Assembly: GCA_016934825.1 (NCBI GenBank)
Contig: JAFGSB010000160.1
Span: 82,276 to 146,275, forward strand
Direction: 5' to 3'
Origin: Candidatus Zhuqueibacterota bacterium
GTDB taxonomy: Bacteria > Zhuqueibacterota > Zhuqueibacteria > Residuimicrobiales > Krinioviventaceae
DNA: 64,000 bases
Part shown: positions 3,942-64,000 of the stretch, piece after piece
Layout: every line of letters begins with the position of its first letter
How positions within the stretch are numbered: position 1 is the stretch's first letter
Made by a program: the position numbers and the translations under genes
The notes under the pieces: model-generated
Databases searched by the model: none
What the model saw: the letters and a program-made list of their open reading frames with translations, nothing else
What the model was told of the DNA's origin: nothing

Positions 3942-6900
3942 TTATTTCAGCAACAACATTTTTTGCGTACTGATATGCTTGTTATCCACTTCAAGTCTGT
4001 AGAAATACATTCCTGAACTGACGCGTTTTCCAAAATCATCGCAGCTATCCCAAATTGATTTATAGTAACCGGCGCTCATCGTTGTCGATACCAGAGTACG
4101 GACCTTTTGACCCAGGGTATTGAAAACAACGACCTTGACTTCACCGGCTTTGGGCAGAGCAAATTCTATGGTTGTTGTCGGGTTGAACGGATTCGGATAG
4201 TTTTTGCTCAGGCTGAATTCCATCGGTAATGCGTTTTCATCGGCAATCCCATTGGTAATCGTCGGAACATTGACCCTATGATAGATATCAACAAGCATAG
4301 CGTCATTAATTTTCGGTTGTTCGGGATTTTTAACAATCGCCCTTACTGTAAAATTGACAAGCATCGGATTGATATCTTTTGAACCGTTGTTACCGATAGA
4401 GGCGCAAACAAAATCATGGTTGTATCCGTTTTGTTTCTCAAAGAAGAGTTTACTGCCCCTGTGCAGTTGATCTTCAAAAGAGACCAGTTCCCATTGTTTG
4501 GCGTTGATGAATATTTTGGTTGAATAGGCCATCAATGCCGGGAAGTTTTCCGCTACAATACCATAAGTGGTATATTTGTCGGACTGTTTCAGCACAATCA
4601 GCTTGGCAAGAGTCTTTGCATCGTCTGCCGCAACCGGTCCCTTGTACAGGATACCTTCGCCGTTCGTGGAAGCATTTTCGGCGGCGTAGGCAATATCGCT
4701 GACCGTAATGACATCATCATTATCGACGTCACAATAAACGTTCCAGTTCGTATCCGCTGAAGTCGACTCGAATGCAGATTCAAATACCTGATGGTCGGTG
4801 CCGTTAATTTGATTGTCCGGCAATGAAGTTGTTGCCGAATTGCCGTCGTGATCGTAACCGGCGCAGTCGCCTGCCAGCAGTTTGTCGGCATTGTAAAAGT
4901 TTACGGATGTTGTCGAATAAGCCTGTACGGTCTGGTTTGAAGCTTTTTGAATCGTCCATCCGGCTTTTTCGCACAAAACATCATATTTACCGACTGGTAC
5001 CGATCTCAGGGTATATGTTCCGTTCGGACCCAATGTAACCTGAATACCATCGGTAGCGCTCGCGTCGTTGTTTGCTGAAAGAAAAGTAGCGTCGGTAATG
5101 TTGTCGTAAGATCCGGTCGGGCATACCCATAATGTAACGACCTCGCCGGAATCAGTTCTGGCCTGAACATCGACCAAACCGCTGATTTTGCCTCTTGGCG
5201 CAAGGCTGACAACTGCGGCGGACGGAGGAACATTTGTTCCGAATTGGGTAAAATTAACGTCCAGCATGTGAGATATCCTGCTGCCGGTGTTGTTGATCGT
5301 CAGGTTTGAATTTTCCATCACATCGCCGGAGGCATCCGTTTTGGCAACAATCTGGAATGTCGCTACAGCCGTATTAGCCAGATTCTTTGTGGTTGTAAAG
5401 TTGGTATAATGACTGGCAAAGTCCAGTTGATTATCAGTACCGACAACCGTCGCCACATTTTTGGTAACGGAACCGTTAAATGTTGTTGTAACCGGGGTAA
5501 AGGCTTGTACTCCCGCCGTTGAACCGTTTTGGTCCACGATATTAAAATATTCAGCGGGTACATTCACATAAACCTCGATCCACATCGGGTCATTGGTTGC
5601 CGTATTGTCGGTCGCGTATACCGTTACTGTTAAAGTATCGCCCTTTTCCATCATCGCCCTGGTCGGCTCCAGTCTATAGTTATACTGGCCGTTTTTGTCG
5701 GTTGCACCGGAAAAGTATAGCTGACCGTCGGCTTTGATAATGGTCTGATTGGTTAAATCCGTCCAGTCATTGTCACTGTCATAATCATACAAATAATAGA
5801 TATCATATGTGCCACTTGGTGCGGAACCGGCATCGCTAATATCATCAGTAATCACAGAGACATCAACCAGATATTTTCCGTCAGCATATGTCGGAGCGCT
5901 TGCATACGCAATTGGAGAAGTTCCGTCATCAGATGTGGTCAACCAGTAACACGCATTGGTCAACTCGTCATATTCAACGGCGCCGGAGACATCGGCATCC
6001 AGATTTGTTCCAGCAGTTACCATAAATGCGCCGACCGTTAAATTTGCCGGAGTTCCGTCTATATCAAAAGCGTCCCAGGTTAACAGATAGGTGTCGCCCA
6101 GTCCGAGACTGAGGACTTCGCCTTCAACCGGGGTTAACGGCAGAAAATAGGAACCATGAGAAATTTGTACGGTCCTTTGACCCGCGCTTCCCATATTTCC
6201 GTTACTATTCAGGGTAACAACCGCGGCATCGCCGTCGCTTGTCACAATGGCGTATAAATAATAGGCTACCCCGGCCGCAAGACCGGAATTTCTCACATCC
6301 CACATATAGCGGTTCGCCTGTTTGGTATCCGACGTATCGACGATTGTGGCAATATGAACCGTATGTGTCGGATCTGCAATAGCATCAAGTGGAAGCAATG
6401 TGGTATCAACGGACGAAGGCGTCAGACTCCCGCCTGCTGCCGCGTATCCAAGATCGCTGCAGTACAGGTTGATGATCATGTTGCCGTCCAGTTCGTTATC
6501 CATATCGACCAATCGGCCCCAGTTGATGGTAACATACTGAGTAGTCGCCGTATTAATAATAATGTTGCCGTTATAATACTGATCGTCAAACACAAAATAG
6601 GGGAATGTTTTGATATCAAGCTGAAAATTTGCAGCGCCGGTATTGTTTTTAACGCGCTGCAGCGCCTGATGTCTGCCGTCGTTGGCTACAACCCAAACCT
6701 GGTACGAACCAACCGCGTCAAAATCAGAGTCACTTCTAATAGCTTCATAGTTGTAAAATGAATACGGTAAAAACGCTGTTTGTGCCGAGGTTGTAATCGC
6801 GGTCGCGCCGCCAAGCCCTGTGATAACGATATTCGGAGATGTACCTGATGTTTTAATACTGTCCGCTGTAATAGTAACGGTAGTCGGCGCGCGGAAAATC

Positions 6901-8147
6901 TGAAAAGTGGCTTCATCGTCATAATCGCGAACAGAGACAAAAAAGTCGATGTCATCTATGCTGGTGGAACCAATTGCGCCGTCGGCACCAAGACCGCCGC
7001 TGACATCCAGGGTTACCGAAGAGACATTGTCGTCGCCGATCGGTTCAACCAGACCGTCGTCGTCATAATCGACGCCGATCGCGTCATTGTCCGTGTCCGT
7101 AAAAGTCGGGTAGTGAAAAATATGGACCGCGTCGCTCATTCCAACAACCCAATCCGCCGTCAGGTTTGTTGTGAGGTAAAAATACCAATCACCTTCTTCC
7201 AGCAGGCTTGAATTTAAATTTTCGGCGGACATGGTGCCGTCTTCATTGTCCGTTATCTGCACCGCACTGGTTACATTATAAGCTTTTTGAACTCCGGCTG
7301 TTGCCGCGCTGATCTTTTTAATGGTATCCAGTTTGGACGCCCAGAGCGTAAAGGTGATTTCGTCCGTCGCATCGTCATTGTCAAGGGTAATGGATTCGAA
7401 ATCCGCGTCCGTTCCGTTGACAACGTTTTCATTATTAACATCATCGTCCTGGTCGGTAACCCAATCCGGTAGGGCGGCGGTAATTGCAGCGGCAGCTCCG
7501 TTCGGCCATTTATCACCGTCGGTATCGGTTGTGTCGTTACCGCCGGAATAATTGGCGGCAAATGTAACCAGATTCAATGTTTCTTTTAAAGTAACCCGCG
7601 CTCTTGCCGTGTTTGTGGTTTCGTGTGACTGCTCCTGGGTTATCACATATGAAACGGTATCGCCATCCGAAAAGGAAGGTGACGTAATAACCGGAAACAT
7701 AACGGTTATAATATCACCAGCTACGACTGCTCCCGTTACGCCAAAACTAAGCAAGATTTGTGACGCATTGGTGGAAGCTCCTACTACCGTAACGGCGCCG
7801 ATATCATTTGTCGCGGCCCAGGAAACCGATACACCATCGTTATAATTGGCATCCGGGTCGTCCGCATTCGGATTGGCAAGACTTATTCCGGTTGGCATGG
7901 TGATTTTAATATCATCATCTGCTACCCAGACACCCCCGCCATCCAAAGTTATAACAAGTGTTTGTAAAAAGTGATGATCCCCGTCAAAATCATTGACCGA
8001 CGCACCGATCGGTAATGAATCAACCGGCGCCGTCACACTCAAACCAAACGCGGTTTGAGAAAAGGCGAACAAGATCGCCATAACCAAAAACGTATTACCA
8101 AGATATTTTGATAAACGTTTAGTTTTTACAGCTGTTAAACATTTCAT
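3942..8147 (-). CDS. Giant secreted protein with dockerin-like and C-terminal sorting domains
   Basis: The product is a 1401-residue exported protein. I place the start at the ATG at 8147, not the in-frame ATG at 8216, because GGAGG stands seven bases before it and the protein then begins with a proper signal peptide (core 'FLVMAILFAFSQTAFG'). The body is Asp/Thr-rich beta-sandwich repeats of unknown specificity. Residues about 1010-1085 resemble a carboxypeptidase-regulatory-like fold. Residues about 1092-1160 hold two Asp-rich calcium loops ('GDCAGYDHDGN' and 'YCDVDNDDVITVSD') in dockerin type I / EF-hand arrangement. The last 85 residues ('NYPNPFNPTTTIEFALP' to 'MYFYRLEV', ending KMLLLK) are a canonical T9SS type A / FlgD-like sorting domain. 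It probably sits on the cell surface. Its own terminator lies at 3880-3915. The dockerin call is by pattern only. Confidence 0.82.
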   Translation of the reverse strand: MKCLTAVKTKRLSKYLGNTFLVMAILFAFSQTAFGLSVTAPVDSLPIGASVNDFDGDHHFLQTLVITLDGGGVWVADDDIKITMPTGISLANPNADDPDANYNDGVSVSWAATNDIGAVTVVGASTNASQILLSFGVTGAVVAGDIITVMFPVITSPSFSDGDTVSYVITQEQSHETTNTARARVTLKETLNLVTFAANYSGGNDTTDTDGDKWPNGAAAAITAALPDWVTDQDDDVNNENVVNGTDADFESITLDNDDATDEITFTLWASKLDTIKKISAATAGVQKAYNVTSAVQITDNEDGTMSAENLNSSLLEEGDWYFYLTTNLTADWVVGMSDAVHIFHYPTFTDTDNDAIGVDYDDDGLVEPIGDDNVSSVTLDVSGGLGADGAIGSTSIDDIDFFVSVRDYDDEATFQIFRAPTTVTITADSIKTSGTSPNIVITGLGGATAITTSAQTAFLPYSFYNYEAIRSDSDFDAVGSYQVWVVANDGRHQALQRVKNNTGAANFQLDIKTFPYFVFDDQYYNGNIIINTATTQYVTINWGRLVDMDNELDGNMIINLYCSDLGYAAAGGSLTPSSVDTTLLPLDAIADPTHTVHIATIVDTSDTKQANRYMWDVRNSGLAAGVAYYLYAIVTSDGDAAVVTLNSNGNMGSAGQRTVQISHGSYFLPLTPVEGEVLSLGLGDTYLLTWDAFDIDGTPANLTVGAFMVTAGTNLDADVSGAVEYDELTNACYWLTTSDDGTSPIAYASAPTYADGKYLVDVSVITDDISDAGSAPSGTYDIYYLYDYDSDNDWTDLTNQTIIKADGQLYFSGATDKNGQYNYRLEPTRAMMEKGDTLTVTVYATDNTATNDPMWIEVYVNVPAEYFNIVDQNGSTAGVQAFTPVTTTFNGSVTKNVATVVGTDNQLDFASHYTNFTTTKNLANTAVATFQIVAKTDASGDVMENSNLTINNTGSRISHMLDVNFTQFGTNVPPSAAVVSLAPRGKISGLVDVQARTDSGEVVTLWVCPTGSYDNITDATFLSANNDASATDGIQVTLGPNGTYTLRSVPVGKYDVLCEKAGWTIQKASNQTVQAYSTTSVNFYNADKLLAGDCAGYDHDGNSATTSLPDNQINGTDHQVFESAFESTSADTNWNVYCDVDNDDVITVSDIAYAAENASTNGEGILYKGPVAADDAKTLAKLIVLKQSDKYTTYGIVAENFPALMAYSTKIFINAKQWELVSFEDQLHRGSKLFFEKQNGYNHDFVCASIGNNGSKDINPMLVNFTVRAIVKNPEQPKINDAMLVDIYHRVNVPTITNGIADENALPMEFSLSKNYPNPFNPTTTIEFALPKAGEVKVVVFNTLGQKVRTLVSTTMSAGYYKSIWDSCDDFGKRVSSGMYFYRLEVDNKHISTQKMLLLK

Positions 8148-8779
8148 GTTAACACCTCCATGTGCAAAAAAGTATTTATGAATTAGTAAACTTTGCGTCA
8201 AATCCGTTTGTCGCATTTAAAATTTCAGGACCGAATCGGATTCCCCTAATTAAAGAAATTTTAAAATTCTCGTCATAAGCCTCTCCTCATGTTTTGGTTT
8301 TAAATGTCAAGTTTATATTTTAAAAATTTTTATATCAATAACATTATCCTTTATCGACAAAATCGAAAGAAACTTGAATTTTTTTTAATTTTATGACAAA
8401 CTGCCTTCCTGCAGGTTAATTTTTTTGTATGATTTTTGTTTGATACTATTTGACAGCATGTTACCGGCAAAGTCTATGCCATGTTGATTTTTTATTATTG
8501 TATCATCAGTGACATAGATAGAACATCCATATGTAACACATTGAAATCCCCATAATACTACATATAGATAAATCAAACGTTTATACTACTACATTTGGAA
8601 ATAATAATCGAAAAAGGAGAGAAAAAACGAATTTAAAAAATTTTGTATTTGTCGTAATTTTTAAACGGTAAAGATACTTTTGGGTAAAATGTGAACTTTT
8701 TTTCCCCTGAAAACATTATATATTTTCTCTTTCAATTTTTTTCTTTTTTTAATTTTACCCCGGAAGTATTAAAATTTAC
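8148..8779. other. Large AT-rich intergenic region
   Basis: About 630 bases without a convincing gene. The part next to 8147 must be the 5' leader and promoter region of the giant secreted protein. A GGAGAG sequence near 8617 looks like a ribosome binding site but no reading frame follows. A 61-codon minus-strand frame (8391-8576) has no coding character. The rest is low-complexity A/T tracts. Confidence 0.4.
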
Positions 8780-58855: not shown

Positions 58856-60295
58856 ATGAAAGAAAATTTAATCAAAATAAATGATTTCCTGTACGAGATC
58901 CCGAAAACGGGGAAAATGAAAGTCCCTGCCCGTATTTACGCGACGGAGAACATGCTGGCGGACATATTGAGCGACAACGCTCCGGAACAGGCTAAGAATG
59001 TCGCCTGCCTGCCGGGGATCGTCGGTTATTCATTCGCCATGCCGGATATGCACTGGGGTTACGGTTTTCCCATCGGCGGGGTGGCCGCGTTCGACATGGA
59101 CGACGGCGTCATTTCGCCCGGCGGCGTGGGATACGACATTAACTGCGGTGTGCGGCTGCTGCGCACCGATTTGTCTCGTAAGGACGTTCAGGGCAAAATA
59201 ACCCATATCGTGGACGCTTTGTTCGCCAGCATTCCCAGCGGCGTCGGCTCAACCGGACCGGTCAGGCTGTCCGCCGCCGACGAGAAAAAAGTATTGACGG
59301 AAGGTGCGCACTGGGCGGTGGCGAACGGTTACGGCGACAGAGAGGACCTGGACAAGATCGAGGAGACCGGCCGGATGCCGGGCGCGGTCCCGGACTATGT
59401 CAGCGACCACGCGCTCAAACGCGGCAAGGCGCAGTTGGGCACGCTGGGCTCCGGCAACCATTTTGTCGAAGTGGGATATGTGGAACAGGTGTTTGACGAA
59501 AAGATCGCGGCGCGGCTGGGACTGTTCAAAAACCAGGTGACGGTGATCGTGCATACCGGTTCGCGGGGACTGGGTCACCAGATCTGCGACGATTTTATCA
59601 AAGTCATGCTGGGGGCGGCGGACAAATACGGCATTTATCTGCCGGACCGGCAGTTGTGTTGCGCGCCGGTCAGGTCGCCGGAGGGGCAGCGTTACCTGGG
59701 AGCCATGGCCGCCGGCGTGAACTTTGCCTTTTGCAACCGCCAGCTCATCACCCACTGGACGCGCGAGGCGTTTATGCGGGCGCTGTGCGCGGGCCCGAAA
59801 ACCGTGAATATGCGCGTGGTTTACGAAGTGGCGCACAATATCGCCAAAATCGAGGAGCACAAAGTCAACGGCAAAAACAAAAAATTGTGTGTGCACCGCA
59901 AGGGCGCGACGCGGGCGTTCGGGCCGGGCCATCCCGCGGTGCCGGAATCGTACCGGGACATCGGCCAGCCGGTGCTCATCCCCGGCGACATGGGACGCTA
60001 CTCGTATGTGCTGGTCGGCACCGAGAACGCCATGCGCGAGACCTTCGGTTCCACCTGTCACGGCGCGGGCCGTGTGCTGAGCCGTAAAAAAGCCTTAAAG
60101 AGAGCGCAGGGCCGCTCGTTGTACAGGGAACTGCTGGACAAAGGTATTTACGTCAAAGCCTCCTCCAAAGCCACCATGGCGGAGGAAATGCCGGAGGCGT
60201 ATAAAAACGTTTCCAATGTTGTGGACGCCGTCGCCGGGGCGGGGATATCCAAAATCGTGGCGCGGTTAAAGCCGATGGGGGTGATTAAGGGGTAG
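58856..60295 (+). CDS. rtcB: RNA-splicing ligase RtcB
   Basis: 479 residues, the long form as in archaea. The metal-binding Cys is in 'GGVGYDINCGVR' (about 93-100), with 'LGSGNHFVEV' and 'HTGSRGLGHQI' supplying His ligands, and the guanylylated His is H402 in 'STCHGAGRVLS'. It joins RNA 2',3'-cyclic-phosphate or 3'-phosphate ends to 5'-OH ends using GTP, for tRNA or RNA repair. It is translationally adjacent to archease. It is the most GC-rich gene of the window, in sharp contrast to the AT-rich genes after 60.5 kb. Confidence 0.96.
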   Translation: MKENLIKINDFLYEIPKTGKMKVPARIYATENMLADILSDNAPEQAKNVACLPGIVGYSFAMPDMHWGYGFPIGGVAAFDMDDGVISPGGVGYDINCGVRLLRTDLSRKDVQGKITHIVDALFASIPSGVGSTGPVRLSAADEKKVLTEGAHWAVANGYGDREDLDKIEETGRMPGAVPDYVSDHALKRGKAQLGTLGSGNHFVEVGYVEQVFDEKIAARLGLFKNQVTVIVHTGSRGLGHQICDDFIKVMLGAADKYGIYLPDRQLCCAPVRSPEGQRYLGAMAAGVNFAFCNRQLITHWTREAFMRALCAGPKTVNMRVVYEVAHNIAKIEEHKVNGKNKKLCVHRKGATRAFGPGHPAVPESYRDIGQPVLIPGDMGRYSYVLVGTENAMRETFGSTCHGAGRVLSRKKALKRAQGRSLYRELLDKGIYVKASSKATMAEEMPEAYKNVSNVVDAVAGAGISKIVARLKPMGVIKG

Positions 60296-60310: not shown

Positions 60311-60339
60311 GTGTAGTCCACTTTTAAAGTGGACTACAC
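60311..60339. repeat. 29-bp perfect palindrome after rtcB
   Basis: Two perfect 14-base arms (GTGTAGTCCACTTT and its complement) flank a single central T. It lies 15 bases after the rtcB stop, at the boundary between the GC-rich rtcB gene and the AT-rich island. As RNA it would be a very stable stem but has no T run on either side. It could be a terminator of unusual type, a recombination or excision scar, or a protein binding site. Confidence 0.55.
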
Positions 60340-60376
60340 GTAAAAACACCTCGTTTTTCAATTCCAGAGTAGGAAC

Positions 60377-60508: not shown

Positions 60509-61627
60509 TCACTTTGTAAGAATTATATCAATTTCACCAGTATTTTTTGTCGAGTTGCCACATATTTCTGTTTGGGTTTTTTTATTAAAAGGACTCTCAG
60601 ATATTTTTGTTTTATGTTCTGGAAAATATTTTTGAAGAATAGTAAGAGTTGTATTAAAAGTGAAATCTCTTTTATCGGTTCGAACATAAATGGTGCTTTT
60701 TTTATCCATCAAGAATGAACAATTATAAAAGACACTATCTAAAAGATTATAATATGTTTCTTTTGACACAAAACGTCCTTTATATTTTTCTTTTGTTGCT
60801 TTTGGTATAACTGGGCCTCCAAGTAACCACAACCGCAACCATTGATCAGCGTAATAGTCAGTTACAGAACAATATGGTGGTGAAGTTAAAAGAAGAGAAA
60901 ATTTAATATTTGCGGTTTTTGCCCTTTCGACAATATCAACCAATTTAAGGGTACAATCACCAAATAAAATCTTGCTATCAAAAACTTCAGGTTTACCTTT
61001 TTCATATCTCCAATTTAATTTTTTTATAATAAATTCCGCTGGATTGATTTTTGGTGGTTTTTCAAGATTATTTCTTTTCCACCATTCAATTGAATAATTT
61101 ATACCTAATGCCCTTGTCATTTTCATTTGATTTGACAAACCTTCTCCTAATCTCCCATGCAAATAAACTAATAAAACAGACATTAAGGTTGCATCTACAT
61201 TATTTCTCTTCCAATCTAAATGTCTACGTGCGGCTAGTAAAAATTTTAAAACTTCATCACAATAACACATTCTATAAAAATTTGGCAACTCGGTGATAGT
61301 TTTATTAAAATAATTTTTTATATAATATATTTCCAGAAGACGATCTATAACATCTTTTTTATCAGCTGGACATAATTTTACAGATCCATATAGCCAACCG
61401 ACAGGATTAATTTCAATGCCTAAACTATGTCTGCCTAATACACCCCCAGCATATATACTGGAACCCCGACCAGCAAAAGGATCAATAATAAAGTCACCAG
61501 CTTTTGAATAATTTTCGATTACGCCAAAAGCAAATTCAACAGGAAACATGGCATAATATGGGCCGAATCTTGCCCAACGAGATTCAGCAGTTTTAAAACC
61601 TTTTAATATTTTAGCTGTTTGAATCAT
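60509..61627 (-). CDS. Adenine/cytosine-N DNA methyltransferase
   Basis: 372 residues from the ATG at 61627; an in-frame ATG at 61666 would overlap nurA by 38 bases. Motif I for SAM binding is 'DPFAGRGSSIYAG' (from residue 49), and the catalytic motif is 'TSPPY' at about 248-252, so it belongs to the N4-cytosine/N6-adenine class with motif I before motif IV. About 200 residues between them would hold the target-recognition region. It modifies DNA, presumably to mark self. No restriction endonuclease of a standard type is adjacent; instead it is downstream of nurA and herA on the same strand. Confidence 0.82.
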   Translation of the reverse strand: MIQTAKILKGFKTAESRWARFGPYYAMFPVEFAFGVIENYSKAGDFIIDPFAGRGSSIYAGGVLGRHSLGIEINPVGWLYGSVKLCPADKKDVIDRLLEIYYIKNYFNKTITELPNFYRMCYCDEVLKFLLAARRHLDWKRNNVDATLMSVLLVYLHGRLGEGLSNQMKMTRALGINYSIEWWKRNNLEKPPKINPAEFIIKKLNWRYEKGKPEVFDSKILFGDCTLKLVDIVERAKTANIKFSLLLTSPPYCSVTDYYADQWLRLWLLGGPVIPKATKEKYKGRFVSKETYYNLLDSVFYNCSFLMDKKSTIYVRTDKRDFTFNTTLTILQKYFPEHKTKISESPFNKKTQTEICGNSTKNTGEIDIILTK

Positions 61628-61628
61628 G

Positions 61629-63011
61629 TTATAATGATTTTTCCTTAATTTCCCTTGCAATATCATCGAAAATTCTCTTACCTAAGTTTAAAGGTATTGC
61701 CGCTTCAGCATGAGCTGAAACTAGAGGAGAGACAGAATTAGGATATCTACTGGAAACTAGCTCGTTTAATAAATTCATTAAATCATTCAATCTTGGAAAT
61801 TGATCTGGTGATGCTGTAGATATATCTTGTTGGTATTCATTGAAAAAAGCTAACACGGGTACAATACGATAACCCGTATTTGTTTTGTAAAATAGTTTTC
61901 TTCCAAAATATGTATCTTGACCATATGGCTTTTTACTATCTGAAAAGATAATGTTATTTTTTATATAAAAATCAGTCAATAAAAAAGCTGTTTGTATTGG
62001 AAATTTATCGGTCGACCCATCAGCTTGAGTATCGATTTCTTCAAAATGATTATAAAAGGTACCTGATTTTTCTACACCAAACAATAATAAATTTTTTTTA
62101 GTATAATTTTTTTGTAGCTCATTTATTCTTCTTAATTCTGTTATAATAGATTTATTCATCCAAGACCATGTACTAAAACAAGCAAGTGGGCCATCTAGGA
62201 TAAATACAACTCTATCCATAATGTTTAGCCAGCCTTTTTTTTCAAATGATCTTAAAATATGAATTAACCACAATTTTTCAAGCATCTGCATTATTTGTCC
62301 ATACATTTCACCGTTTGTTCCGCCCGGATTAAACAACTCATGTAAACGCATTGCGTCTGTTGAATATAACATTTCACTGGAAGTGTCAGATTTATATGGT
62401 CCAAAACCATAAGTCATATCTTCATCAACGTCATCAATAGGGCTTTTGGGTTTTCGCCTTTCTCCAATTTTATGATCACCATCAAGTTTAATCTGAAATA
62501 AGTGTTCATATGTATCAAGTAATGTTTCACCTTCTTCAAATACTCGTGTATTCTTCAATTCTTCAAATAATGCTTTTCGCATTGAAGCTTTTGCGGTTTT
62601 TTCCCCCTTAATAATAACATTGCATCCTGGAATCACAGTGTCAATTGTAGAAGCTTTCTCTGTTTCACGGAATTTTTTGGGGTCAATAAATTCAAATTTA
62701 GCATAATCCCTTACATCCTTTTCAATTATTAATACTGCAGATATTGTTATATAACCAAATTCTGCACCAGGGAAACCATTTTCGGCTTTTGCGGTATGAT
62801 AACTTCCATCTATTGCAATAATATAATCAGGTGTAAAACCACTATTCGATAAATCATTTATATTTATAAGGTTTTTTTTAATAAATTTATTATTTTCACC
62901 ATTATCCTTTTGATGTCTTATTATTAATTTATCCTGTAGTTTTTGTACCTTAGGACTATCTAAAATCCTTCTTAACGGCTCATAGCTTGCGAATTCTTTT
63001 TCAAAACCCAT
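61629..63011 (-). CDS. nurA: NurA-family nuclease
   Basis: 460 residues. The NurA catalytic landmarks are 'IIAIDGSYHTAKAE' (D68 in the DGS motif), 'VVFILDGPLACFS' in the middle, and the C-terminal 'SAHAEAAIPLNLGKRIFDDI' helix. NurA is a 5'-3' exonuclease and endonuclease that works inside the HerA hexamer. The herA-like gene is 12 bases upstream on the same strand, which confirms the pairing. It is visibly AT-rich, unlike the rtcB region. Its stop is one base before the methyltransferase ATG, so all three genes form one operon. Confidence 0.85.
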   Translation of the reverse strand: MGFEKEFASYEPLRRILDSPKVQKLQDKLIIRHQKDNGENNKFIKKNLININDLSNSGFTPDYIIAIDGSYHTAKAENGFPGAEFGYITISAVLIIEKDVRDYAKFEFIDPKKFRETEKASTIDTVIPGCNVIIKGEKTAKASMRKALFEELKNTRVFEEGETLLDTYEHLFQIKLDGDHKIGERRKPKSPIDDVDEDMTYGFGPYKSDTSSEMLYSTDAMRLHELFNPGGTNGEMYGQIMQMLEKLWLIHILRSFEKKGWLNIMDRVVFILDGPLACFSTWSWMNKSIITELRRINELQKNYTKKNLLLFGVEKSGTFYNHFEEIDTQADGSTDKFPIQTAFLLTDFYIKNNIIFSDSKKPYGQDTYFGRKLFYKTNTGYRIVPVLAFFNEYQQDISTASPDQFPRLNDLMNLLNELVSSRYPNSVSPLVSAHAEAAIPLNLGKRIFDDIAREIKEKSL

Positions 63012-63023
63012 AATTGACCCATA

Positions 63024-63926
63024 TTAAATGTTTACATCAAATTTATCAACTTGAACTGGAATTACAAATGGATTGCTCAATGTTTTCACCCTTAAAAAAC
63101 CTTTGTCTTGTGCGCGCCGAATGGATGGTTCAAAATCAGCAAAATCGTAATATTTACTTAGTTCTTTTGTTTCATCGGTATTATTTAGATGTGCAATAAA
63201 CCAATTAGCCGTGTTTCGTAAAATGTTTTTTTGAATACTACTCACTTCCTGGGTGGCATATACCATTCCAATCCTATATTTTGCACCTTCTTTAGCAGTT
63301 CTTACCCAAATATCTTTCAAGTCGAGATCACTACCTGCAGGTAAAATATTATGTGCTTCTTCAATATAAACTATTACTTCAGGAATATTCAATTCACCTT
63401 GAACAAATCTTTTTTGATTTTCAAGAAATATTTTTGTCATAATTCTATTTGCAGAAGATTTATTCAATTCGGGTTCACCACTAGATTGATCAATAATTAC
63501 CAATTTGCCGGAAATTATATGGTTGTATATTTCCTCAGCATAATCATGAGTTGTATCAGCACTATGTTGTTCTATTGCTTTACCAATTTTTCTAGTTCCA
63601 TTAGGGTATTGAAGTATCCCGATAATTTTTTTCAAATTTTCATCTGCCCAACTATCCCCCGAACCATTTGCTCGATTAACATACCAATTTTCAAAAGCTA
63701 GATAACCACTTTTTTTATCTCTTATGAATTTATCCAATGCCTCAAAAGCATTTGCTAACTGATCCCAGGAAGGGTTTTGCGTGGAAAAAACTTTTGCAGC
63801 AACTTGATACTCGGGAGCGTTATCACCTTGACTATTTCTCATTGCATCAAGTAATTTTTGGTTAAATAAATTTGTTGTATTAGCCCTCATAGTACCTGGC
63901 ACTTGGAAACCAGCTCTAGTGTCATG
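63024..63926 (-). pseudogene. herA: HerA-like ATPase, 5'-truncated by an IS element
   Basis: About 300 codons of the C-terminal part of a HerA/FtsK-type hexameric helicase. Walker B 'EVIVYIEEAHNILP' and the following 'GMVYATQEVSSIQKNIL' and 'NTANWFIAHLNN' are clear. The Walker A motif and the N-terminal HAS barrel are missing. The frame is open upstream to 63926 ('DTRAGFQVPGTM'), then meets the TGA of an IS630-like transposase at 63927-63929. A GTG at 63902 is the first possible start but has no ribosome binding site. The simplest reading is an IS insertion inside herA, with the 5' part beyond the window. HerA drives NurA along DNA ends, so the system may be inactive in this cell. Confidence 0.75.
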
Positions 63927-64000
63927 TCAAGTTAATAAAGTTGGATAAAGTCGTTTCAATTTAATCCGTGCATCATTAGTAGTAAACCGCCAGTCAACTT
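63927..64000 (-). mobile_element. C-terminal end of an IS630-like transposase
   Basis: The minus-strand frame from the window edge reads 'VDWRFTTNDARIKLKRLYP' and then ends TLLT-stop (TGA at 63927-63929). This FTTxDARIKLKxLYP tail is what I know as the C-terminus of IS630/Tc1-type DDE transposases. The element's end should lie just after the stop; a TA dinucleotide at 63917-63918, the target type of this family, followed by GTGTCATGTCAAGTT is a candidate boundary. Only 24 codons are visible. Confidence 0.6.

Follow-up and report, generated by a model that had tools for sequence, protein, structure and literature searches.

A recurrent herA-nurA-methyltransferase gene cassette as a probable restriction-modification-like defence system, with a broken copy in Candidatus Zhuqueibacterota

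We analysed 64,000 nucleotides of a Candidatus Zhuqueibacterota bacterium (contig JAFGSB010000160.1 of assembly GCA_016934825.1; hereafter, the window), which carry, at one end, genes for a DNA methyltransferase, a NurA-family nuclease and part of a HerA-type ATPase. The same three genes recur as a compact cassette in bacterial and archaeal genomes, and we consider it likely that this cassette is a defence system resembling restriction-modification, in which the methyltransferase would mark self DNA and HerA would pump unmarked DNA into NurA.

The three-gene set, which an earlier reading of the window from its letters alone (the sequence-only reading) had singled out, recurs widely, and the neighbourhood counts exceed what chance would give. 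A scan with two peptide patterns and a NurA alignment over one genome per species (84,980 species), a procedure that misses members, gave 42 loci, 41 of them real; L045, with 38 aligned residues, was dropped before the counts (L and G numbers denote loci and genomes). The herA gene adjoins nurA in all 41 loci, and all 40 loci with enough contig also have a methyltransferase gene next to these two. The order is herA-nurA-methyltransferase, with the sole exception of L035 (methyltransferase-herA-nurA). The commonest herA-nurA spacing is 12 bases (9/41 loci), and nurA overlaps the methyltransferase gene by 4 bases in 26/39 loci. No fourth gene is conserved across the 41 loci, the commonest extra cluster being present in 5. 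Between herA and nurA, L034 carries a GIY-YIG/DUF4357 gene (L034:8144-8989), matching the PADLOC defence candidate PDC-S14, and L037 a relative of it (L037:341-1186).

The named hosts include archaea (L004, L008 and L039), Bacteroidota, Nitrospirota, Omnitrophota, Cloacimonadota, Spirochaetota, Gammaproteobacteria and Dojkabacteria, and among the isolates are Bacteroides fragilis (L022), Sediminibacterium roseum (L031), Psychrobacter lutiphocae (L032) and Mucilaginibacter (L033). Archaeal and bacterial NurA are up to 87% identical. L004 and L039 have three flanking gene families in common, which supports a common archaeal setting. The family is a common one, as 2001 of the 7998 proteins scored reach E ≤ 0.001, with identities of at least 65% in all 120 matches listed. 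Over 36 loci (5 of the 41, each with an incomplete gene, were left out), the identity patterns of NurA and methyltransferase correlate at 0.83, and those of HerA with the other two at 0.62 and 0.65.

A search seeded with the methyltransferase (E ≤ 1e-30) covered three sets of genomes (395, 285 and 296, with overlap between the first and the third); here, as in the wider nurA search described below, scoring was limited to some of the first-look candidates in each genome. Twelve genomes matched, three of which were seeds. A methyltransferase occurring in relatives mostly without nurA and herA would have refuted the sequence-only reading; instead, nurA adjoins it in 8 of the 9 non-seed genomes and herA in 7, and these 8 are exactly the genomes above 250 bits. 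As G183 is the genome of L006 and G707 that of L009, the search added 7 new genomes, 6 with nurA. The nurA gene is damaged in two of the 8: in G418 most of it is gone and the remaining start is fused to the methyltransferase, and in G488 it is truncated, with no herA found within the 14 kilobases (kb) read. At L076:5547-6947, a single frame joins the N-terminal ~108 residues of NurA to nearly the whole methyltransferase.

The identity of the genes in the window agrees with what had been read from the letters. The methyltransferase open reading frame (ORF; 60509-61666, minus strand) scores 47.7 bits against Pfam N6_N4_Mtase (cut-off 26.7) and contains motif I (DPFAGRG) followed by motif IV (TSPPY); its AlphaFold model, with a mean predicted local distance difference test (pLDDT) score of 77.8, has a class I methyltransferase fold, and the target base may be N4-cytosine or N6-adenine. 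Alignment with relatives begins at Met14 (61627), and with this start the gap to nurA is 1 base; the herA-nurA gap is 12 bases, the spacing commonest among the relatives, so that both gaps noted earlier hold. The NurA ORF scores 77.5 bits against Pfam NurA (cut-off 21), and D68 and D273 are unchanged in 19 of 19 sequences, near and distant. Passages of PMC12977600 assign a role to an early aspartate of Thermococcus NurA, D49, to which D68 presumably corresponds because a DGS motif is common to both. Across 16 HerA sequences, both near and distant, the motifs G-x4-GKS (Walker A) and YIEEAH (Walker B) are kept, as are R617 and Q634 (L004 numbering), and we infer that R617 and Q634 are the arginine finger and the sensor glutamine; Pfam DUF87 is above its cut-off in three full-length relatives.

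Among solved structures, HerA and NurA of the cassette are closest to TdpA and TdpB, respectively. TdpA is the best solved match to the HerA profile, other solved HerA-type chains being weaker. The NurA profile matched nothing at 0.1 among the sequences of solved structures, and fold comparison was therefore used; the top structural match of the NurA model (pLDDT 75.5) is the nuclease chain of TdpAB. In the Tdp system, a phosphorothioate is the self mark and TdpAB is the restriction half; TdpABC is the subject of An et al. 2025 (doi 10.1038/s41589-024-01832-w). TdpABC likewise joins a HerA-type motor and a NurA-type nuclease to a dedicated DNA-modifying enzyme, whereas the third gene of the cassette encodes a DNA methyltransferase, HerA has about 700 residues versus 586 for TdpA, and NurA has 460 versus 358 in the solved TdpAB chain. 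As to TdpC and phosphorothioate modification, the one gene conserved beside herA-nurA in the 41 loci is that of the methyltransferase. A HerA-NurA core under DNA modification is already known from Tdp.

Other known systems were compared as well. HerA-DUF4297 and Sir2-HerA (Nezha), presented as anti-phage systems in passages of PMC11291478 and PMC12948488, also combine a HerA-like motor with an effector, but their effectors are DUF4297 or Sir2. Recruitment of HerA/FtsK ATPases into defence loci was described by Rakesh et al. 2024 (PMC10853773), the main text of which contains no occurrence of NurA; such capture systems share this recruitment with the cassette and differ in their partners. With type II restriction-modification the cassette has in common an N6/N4-class methyltransferase, and PvuII- and DpnII-like versions stand beside distant pairs, but where such systems have a site-specific endonuclease, for which no gene is conserved in the 41 loci, the cassette has a motor-nuclease. 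With only three genes conserved in these loci, no BREX, DISARM or MADS core was found beside the cassette; PADLOC mad8 matches cassette HerA weakly (E 1.9e-9 to 3.7e-12). Our literature search identified no description of a herA-nurA-methyltransferase cassette; the Iyer and Makarova surveys were not covered by it, and a prior in silico prediction is possible.

The methyltransferase, judging from its family, would mark the DNA of the cell. A HerA hexamer with a NurA dimer would load on the ends of linear invading DNA, in keeping with known HerA-NurA complexes, which engage linear DNA according to passages of PMC12977600 and PMC9960219. NurA is predicted to shred the unmarked DNA fed to it by the HerA motor, and methylated DNA might, by analogy with the phosphorothioate mark of Tdp, cause stalling or rejection. 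The likeness to a processive restriction-modification system that had been suggested for the window is, in our view, strengthened by TdpAB as the nearest solved relative and by the apparent exchange of the partner methyltransferase.

This exchange is seen in the wider clade. At E ≤ 1e-15, nurA was found in 13 of the same 395 genomes. A methyltransferase of the window type is present in 8 of the 13, and in 4 the gene immediately upstream of herA encodes a different methyltransferase, with spacings that range from an overlap of 4 bases to a gap of 28. These are a PvuII-like enzyme in L097 (M.PvuII, E 3.9e-67), a Dam/DpnII-like enzyme in L098 (E 2.5e-39) and, in L094 and L096, two other genes of the D12 class. 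In the thirteenth genome (L095), a type I HsdM-like gene lies 2.3 kb off, beyond one intervening gene, and a D12 gene is about 11 kb off. More distant relatives on plasmids include a HerA-NurA-methyltransferase set in Halorarius and, in Deferribacter, a methyltransferase gene, a herA split by IS200/TnpB, and nurA.

In classical restriction, the endonuclease and the methyltransferase read the same site. The partner methyltransferases of the herA-nurA pairs presumably have different sites, which suggests that the mark is sensed by the motor or that the methyltransferase itself helps. Does one motor-nuclease pair, found with several methyltransferase classes, respond to any lack of methylation, or is its specificity supplied by the methyltransferase? 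A bolder proposal, which we put forward tentatively and hold to be somewhat doubtful, is that HerA-NurA serves as a plug-in restriction core of general use, reading DNA modification without site recognition. It would be combined with at least four kinds of modification enzyme (window-type, PvuII-like and Dam/DpnII-like methyltransferases, and phosphorothioation in Tdp), the motor sensing the mark as it runs along the DNA and phages countering with a lone methyltransferase. If such general sensing were true, the self/non-self logic would be a different one, and phosphorothioate Tdp and base-methylation systems would be joined in one mechanism.

A lone methyltransferase of this kind was found on one phage contig, L048 (17 kb of 28.7 examined), where its neighbour is a tape-measure gene (PHROG 5062, E 2e-52) and herA and nurA are lacking. 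The identity of this enzyme to the methyltransferase of the cassette copy L018 is 93.6%. A phage with the protective enzyme alone is what would be expected if methylation blocks the nuclease, although this is one contig. No cassette NurA was found on the viral contigs searched, and at one viral HerA locus the contig ends inside nurA.

Distant forms of the pair occur on plasmids, and a Vibrio temperate phage (L051:1309-5751) carries HerA in two frames and NurA, together with a D12 methyltransferase gene in convergent orientation, right after its integrase. Such carriers, together with the compactness of a unit of modification and nuclease, would suit a selfish stabilisation module, in which loss of the cassette lets lingering HerA-NurA attack the newly unmethylated host DNA, so that the module and its mobile carrier are kept. 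We regard this as improbable, because it is compatible with defence in any case and because a search of 72,556 plasmid records did not reveal the close family; the 5 records that match its NurA are all below 60% identity.

The reading as a defence system has to be weighed against the housekeeping role of the same two superfamilies. Passages of PMC9960219 and PMC12977600 describe end resection by HerA and NurA, and the cassette NurA is the only NurA in 12 of the 15 cassette genomes searched, with no second NurA found in the genome of the window; these points would fit a DNA-repair pair with a passenger methyltransferase that regulates genes. In the other 3 genomes a second NurA is present. In the archaeal genome of L004 it belongs to an operon of metallophosphatase, SMC/Rad50-type ATPase, NurA and HerA (L054), and in that of L039 (L055) the metallophosphatase and NurA are recognised by Pfam and HerA by profile, with a 1174-residue gene between. 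Thus, in two archaeal assemblies the cassette coexists with the Mre11-Rad50 operon, at a separate locus. In a tree of NurA from 17 cassette loci and the window, cassette and housekeeping proteins are separated with full support, although long branches make the exact placements unsure, and hhalign gave only a short match between the two at 1% probability. The housekeeping archaeal pair is therefore a separate clade as well as a separate locus in the same genomes, and the grouping with it that would have refuted the sequence-only reading is not seen. Patchy presence (this nurA is in 1 of 82 genomes of the phylum, that is, only in that of the window), cross-domain identity and near-constant pairing with methyltransferases speak likewise against repair, which we rejected as the main explanation on the strength of the two archaeal genomes and the tree and consider unlikely.

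A number of observations count against a restriction-modification-like defence. No site-recognition subunit is visible in the cassette. Thermococcus NurA alone does not cut circular double-stranded DNA, according to a passage of PMC12977600, and circular plasmids might hence escape. The top VIA-align matches of the methyltransferase model are tRNA methyltransferases, with many near ties. HerA tracks NurA and the methyltransferase less closely than these track each other (between L004 and L005, NurA identity is 0.87 and HerA identity 0.72), which suggests that HerA was partly exchanged and has its own history. In G145, the exception in the methyltransferase search, herA-nurA is missing beside two methyltransferases of greater distance (147 and 142 bits). 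Contigs can be misassigned in metagenome assemblies, from which most of the loci and the two archaeal genomes come. PADLOC 2023 has models that match HerA and the methyltransferase, and none that matches this NurA. There is no clear bias toward keeping the methyltransferase during decay, the pattern being no different, by a rough hand estimate, from an effect of gene length. Finally, on the Nostoc plasmid L052 (3769-8271), herA-nurA is followed by an AbiTii gene, with no such methyltransferase.

The Nostoc arrangement would favour a defence motor-nuclease in which the methyltransferase acts separately as a regulator or senses phage DNA. Methylation and restriction can also be separable in BREX-like systems. 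Yet different methyltransferase classes at the same place, and the lone phage-borne enzyme, are better explained by a self mark, and we give a regulator or sensor little credence.

ORFs flanking the cassettes (186) match many PADLOC families, 201 and 267 in two halves of 93 ORFs each, figures that are redundant family counts and not gene counts, as one protein matches many models, and that are in this respect a further point against the restriction-modification-like interpretation; 48 window genes, as a control from one genome, match 6. Among the matches listed are type III methyltransferases, Septu PtuA/PtuB, AriA, reverse transcriptase and PDC-S13. The set excluded ORFs shorter than 120 residues, open-ended or more than 4.5 kb away, and L045, and it took in two GIY-YIG-type genes inside the operon. 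Beside the window copy, only housekeeping genes are seen.

Decay is found in all three genes. HerA is broken in L008, L024, L026, L040 and the window and absent in G488; NurA is broken in L037, L044, G418 and G488, and also in L042, near the contig end; the methyltransferase is broken in L044. The pattern of a methyltransferase kept and a nuclease lost was dropped as evidence, as it is not significant against gene length (rough estimate). Single in-frame stops interrupt herA at L008:181-183 and L024:8491-8493, through assembly error, decay or another cause.

The window retains only the last ~42% of herA (Table 1). The assignment to the HerA family stands, but what had been taken as a whole ATPase gene is only its last part: the homology (window 63030-63920) runs from residue 411 to residue 707 of a relative 708 residues long, with the Walker B region YIEEAH kept and the Walker A half missing. 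The end of the gene had been placed at 63926 because a stop lies at 63927-63929. The homology ends at a TA dinucleotide, and IS630 elements target TA. The 82 bases beyond it carry the end of an IS630-type transposase: the frame upstream of the break reads VDWRFTTNDARIKLKRLYPTLLT-stop, the last 23 transposase residues, of which the best among the matches listed is ISMae29 (IS630; 78% identical). IS630 is named in 8 of the 15 plasmid matches listed (of 120 at E ≤ 10), and a Pfam scan of the 23 residues gave nothing. The final base of the window is also that of the contig (146275 of 146275). Whole-genome searches found neither a second copy of the insertion sequence end in this assembly nor the 5′ half of herA elsewhere, and continuation of herA on another contig was rejected on the latter ground. 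TGA read as tryptophan, or a sequencing error, was rejected because the upstream frame is the transposase end and not HerA. Most likely, and as the plainest reading, an IS630-type element inserted into herA, where the assembly then broke; a deletion is possible. In either case the copy lacks Walker A and is therefore probably inactive.

Table 1. Cassette genes and the insertion sequence end in the window.
Feature	Position	Strand	Remarks
DNA methyltransferase	60509..61627	-	372 residues from relatives' common start; ORF opens at 61666
NurA-family nuclease	61629..63011	-	460 residues, intact
herA 3′ remnant	63024..63918	-	residues about 411-708 of about 708
TA dinucleotide	63917..63918	.	HerA homology ends here; putative IS630-type target site
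IS630-type insertion sequence end	63919..64000	-	transposase C-terminus 63930-63998, stop 63927-63929; contig end

The methyltransferase and NurA genes lie on the same strand with a GC content of 0.316, versus 0.419 for the whole window, in agreement with the AT-rich island described earlier; the GC-rich gene beside it, rtcB (58856-60295; 0.592), is itself an outlier and may be foreign. The rtcB and methyltransferase genes are convergent, and an inverted repeat between them, GTGTAGTCCACTTT...AAAGTGGACTACAC (60312-60340), is perhaps a terminator. Elsewhere in the window, a large protein (3942-8216) ends in NYPNPFNPTTTIEFALPKAGEV..., which we take to be a type IX secretion sorting tail and thus a hint at an FCB-group host.
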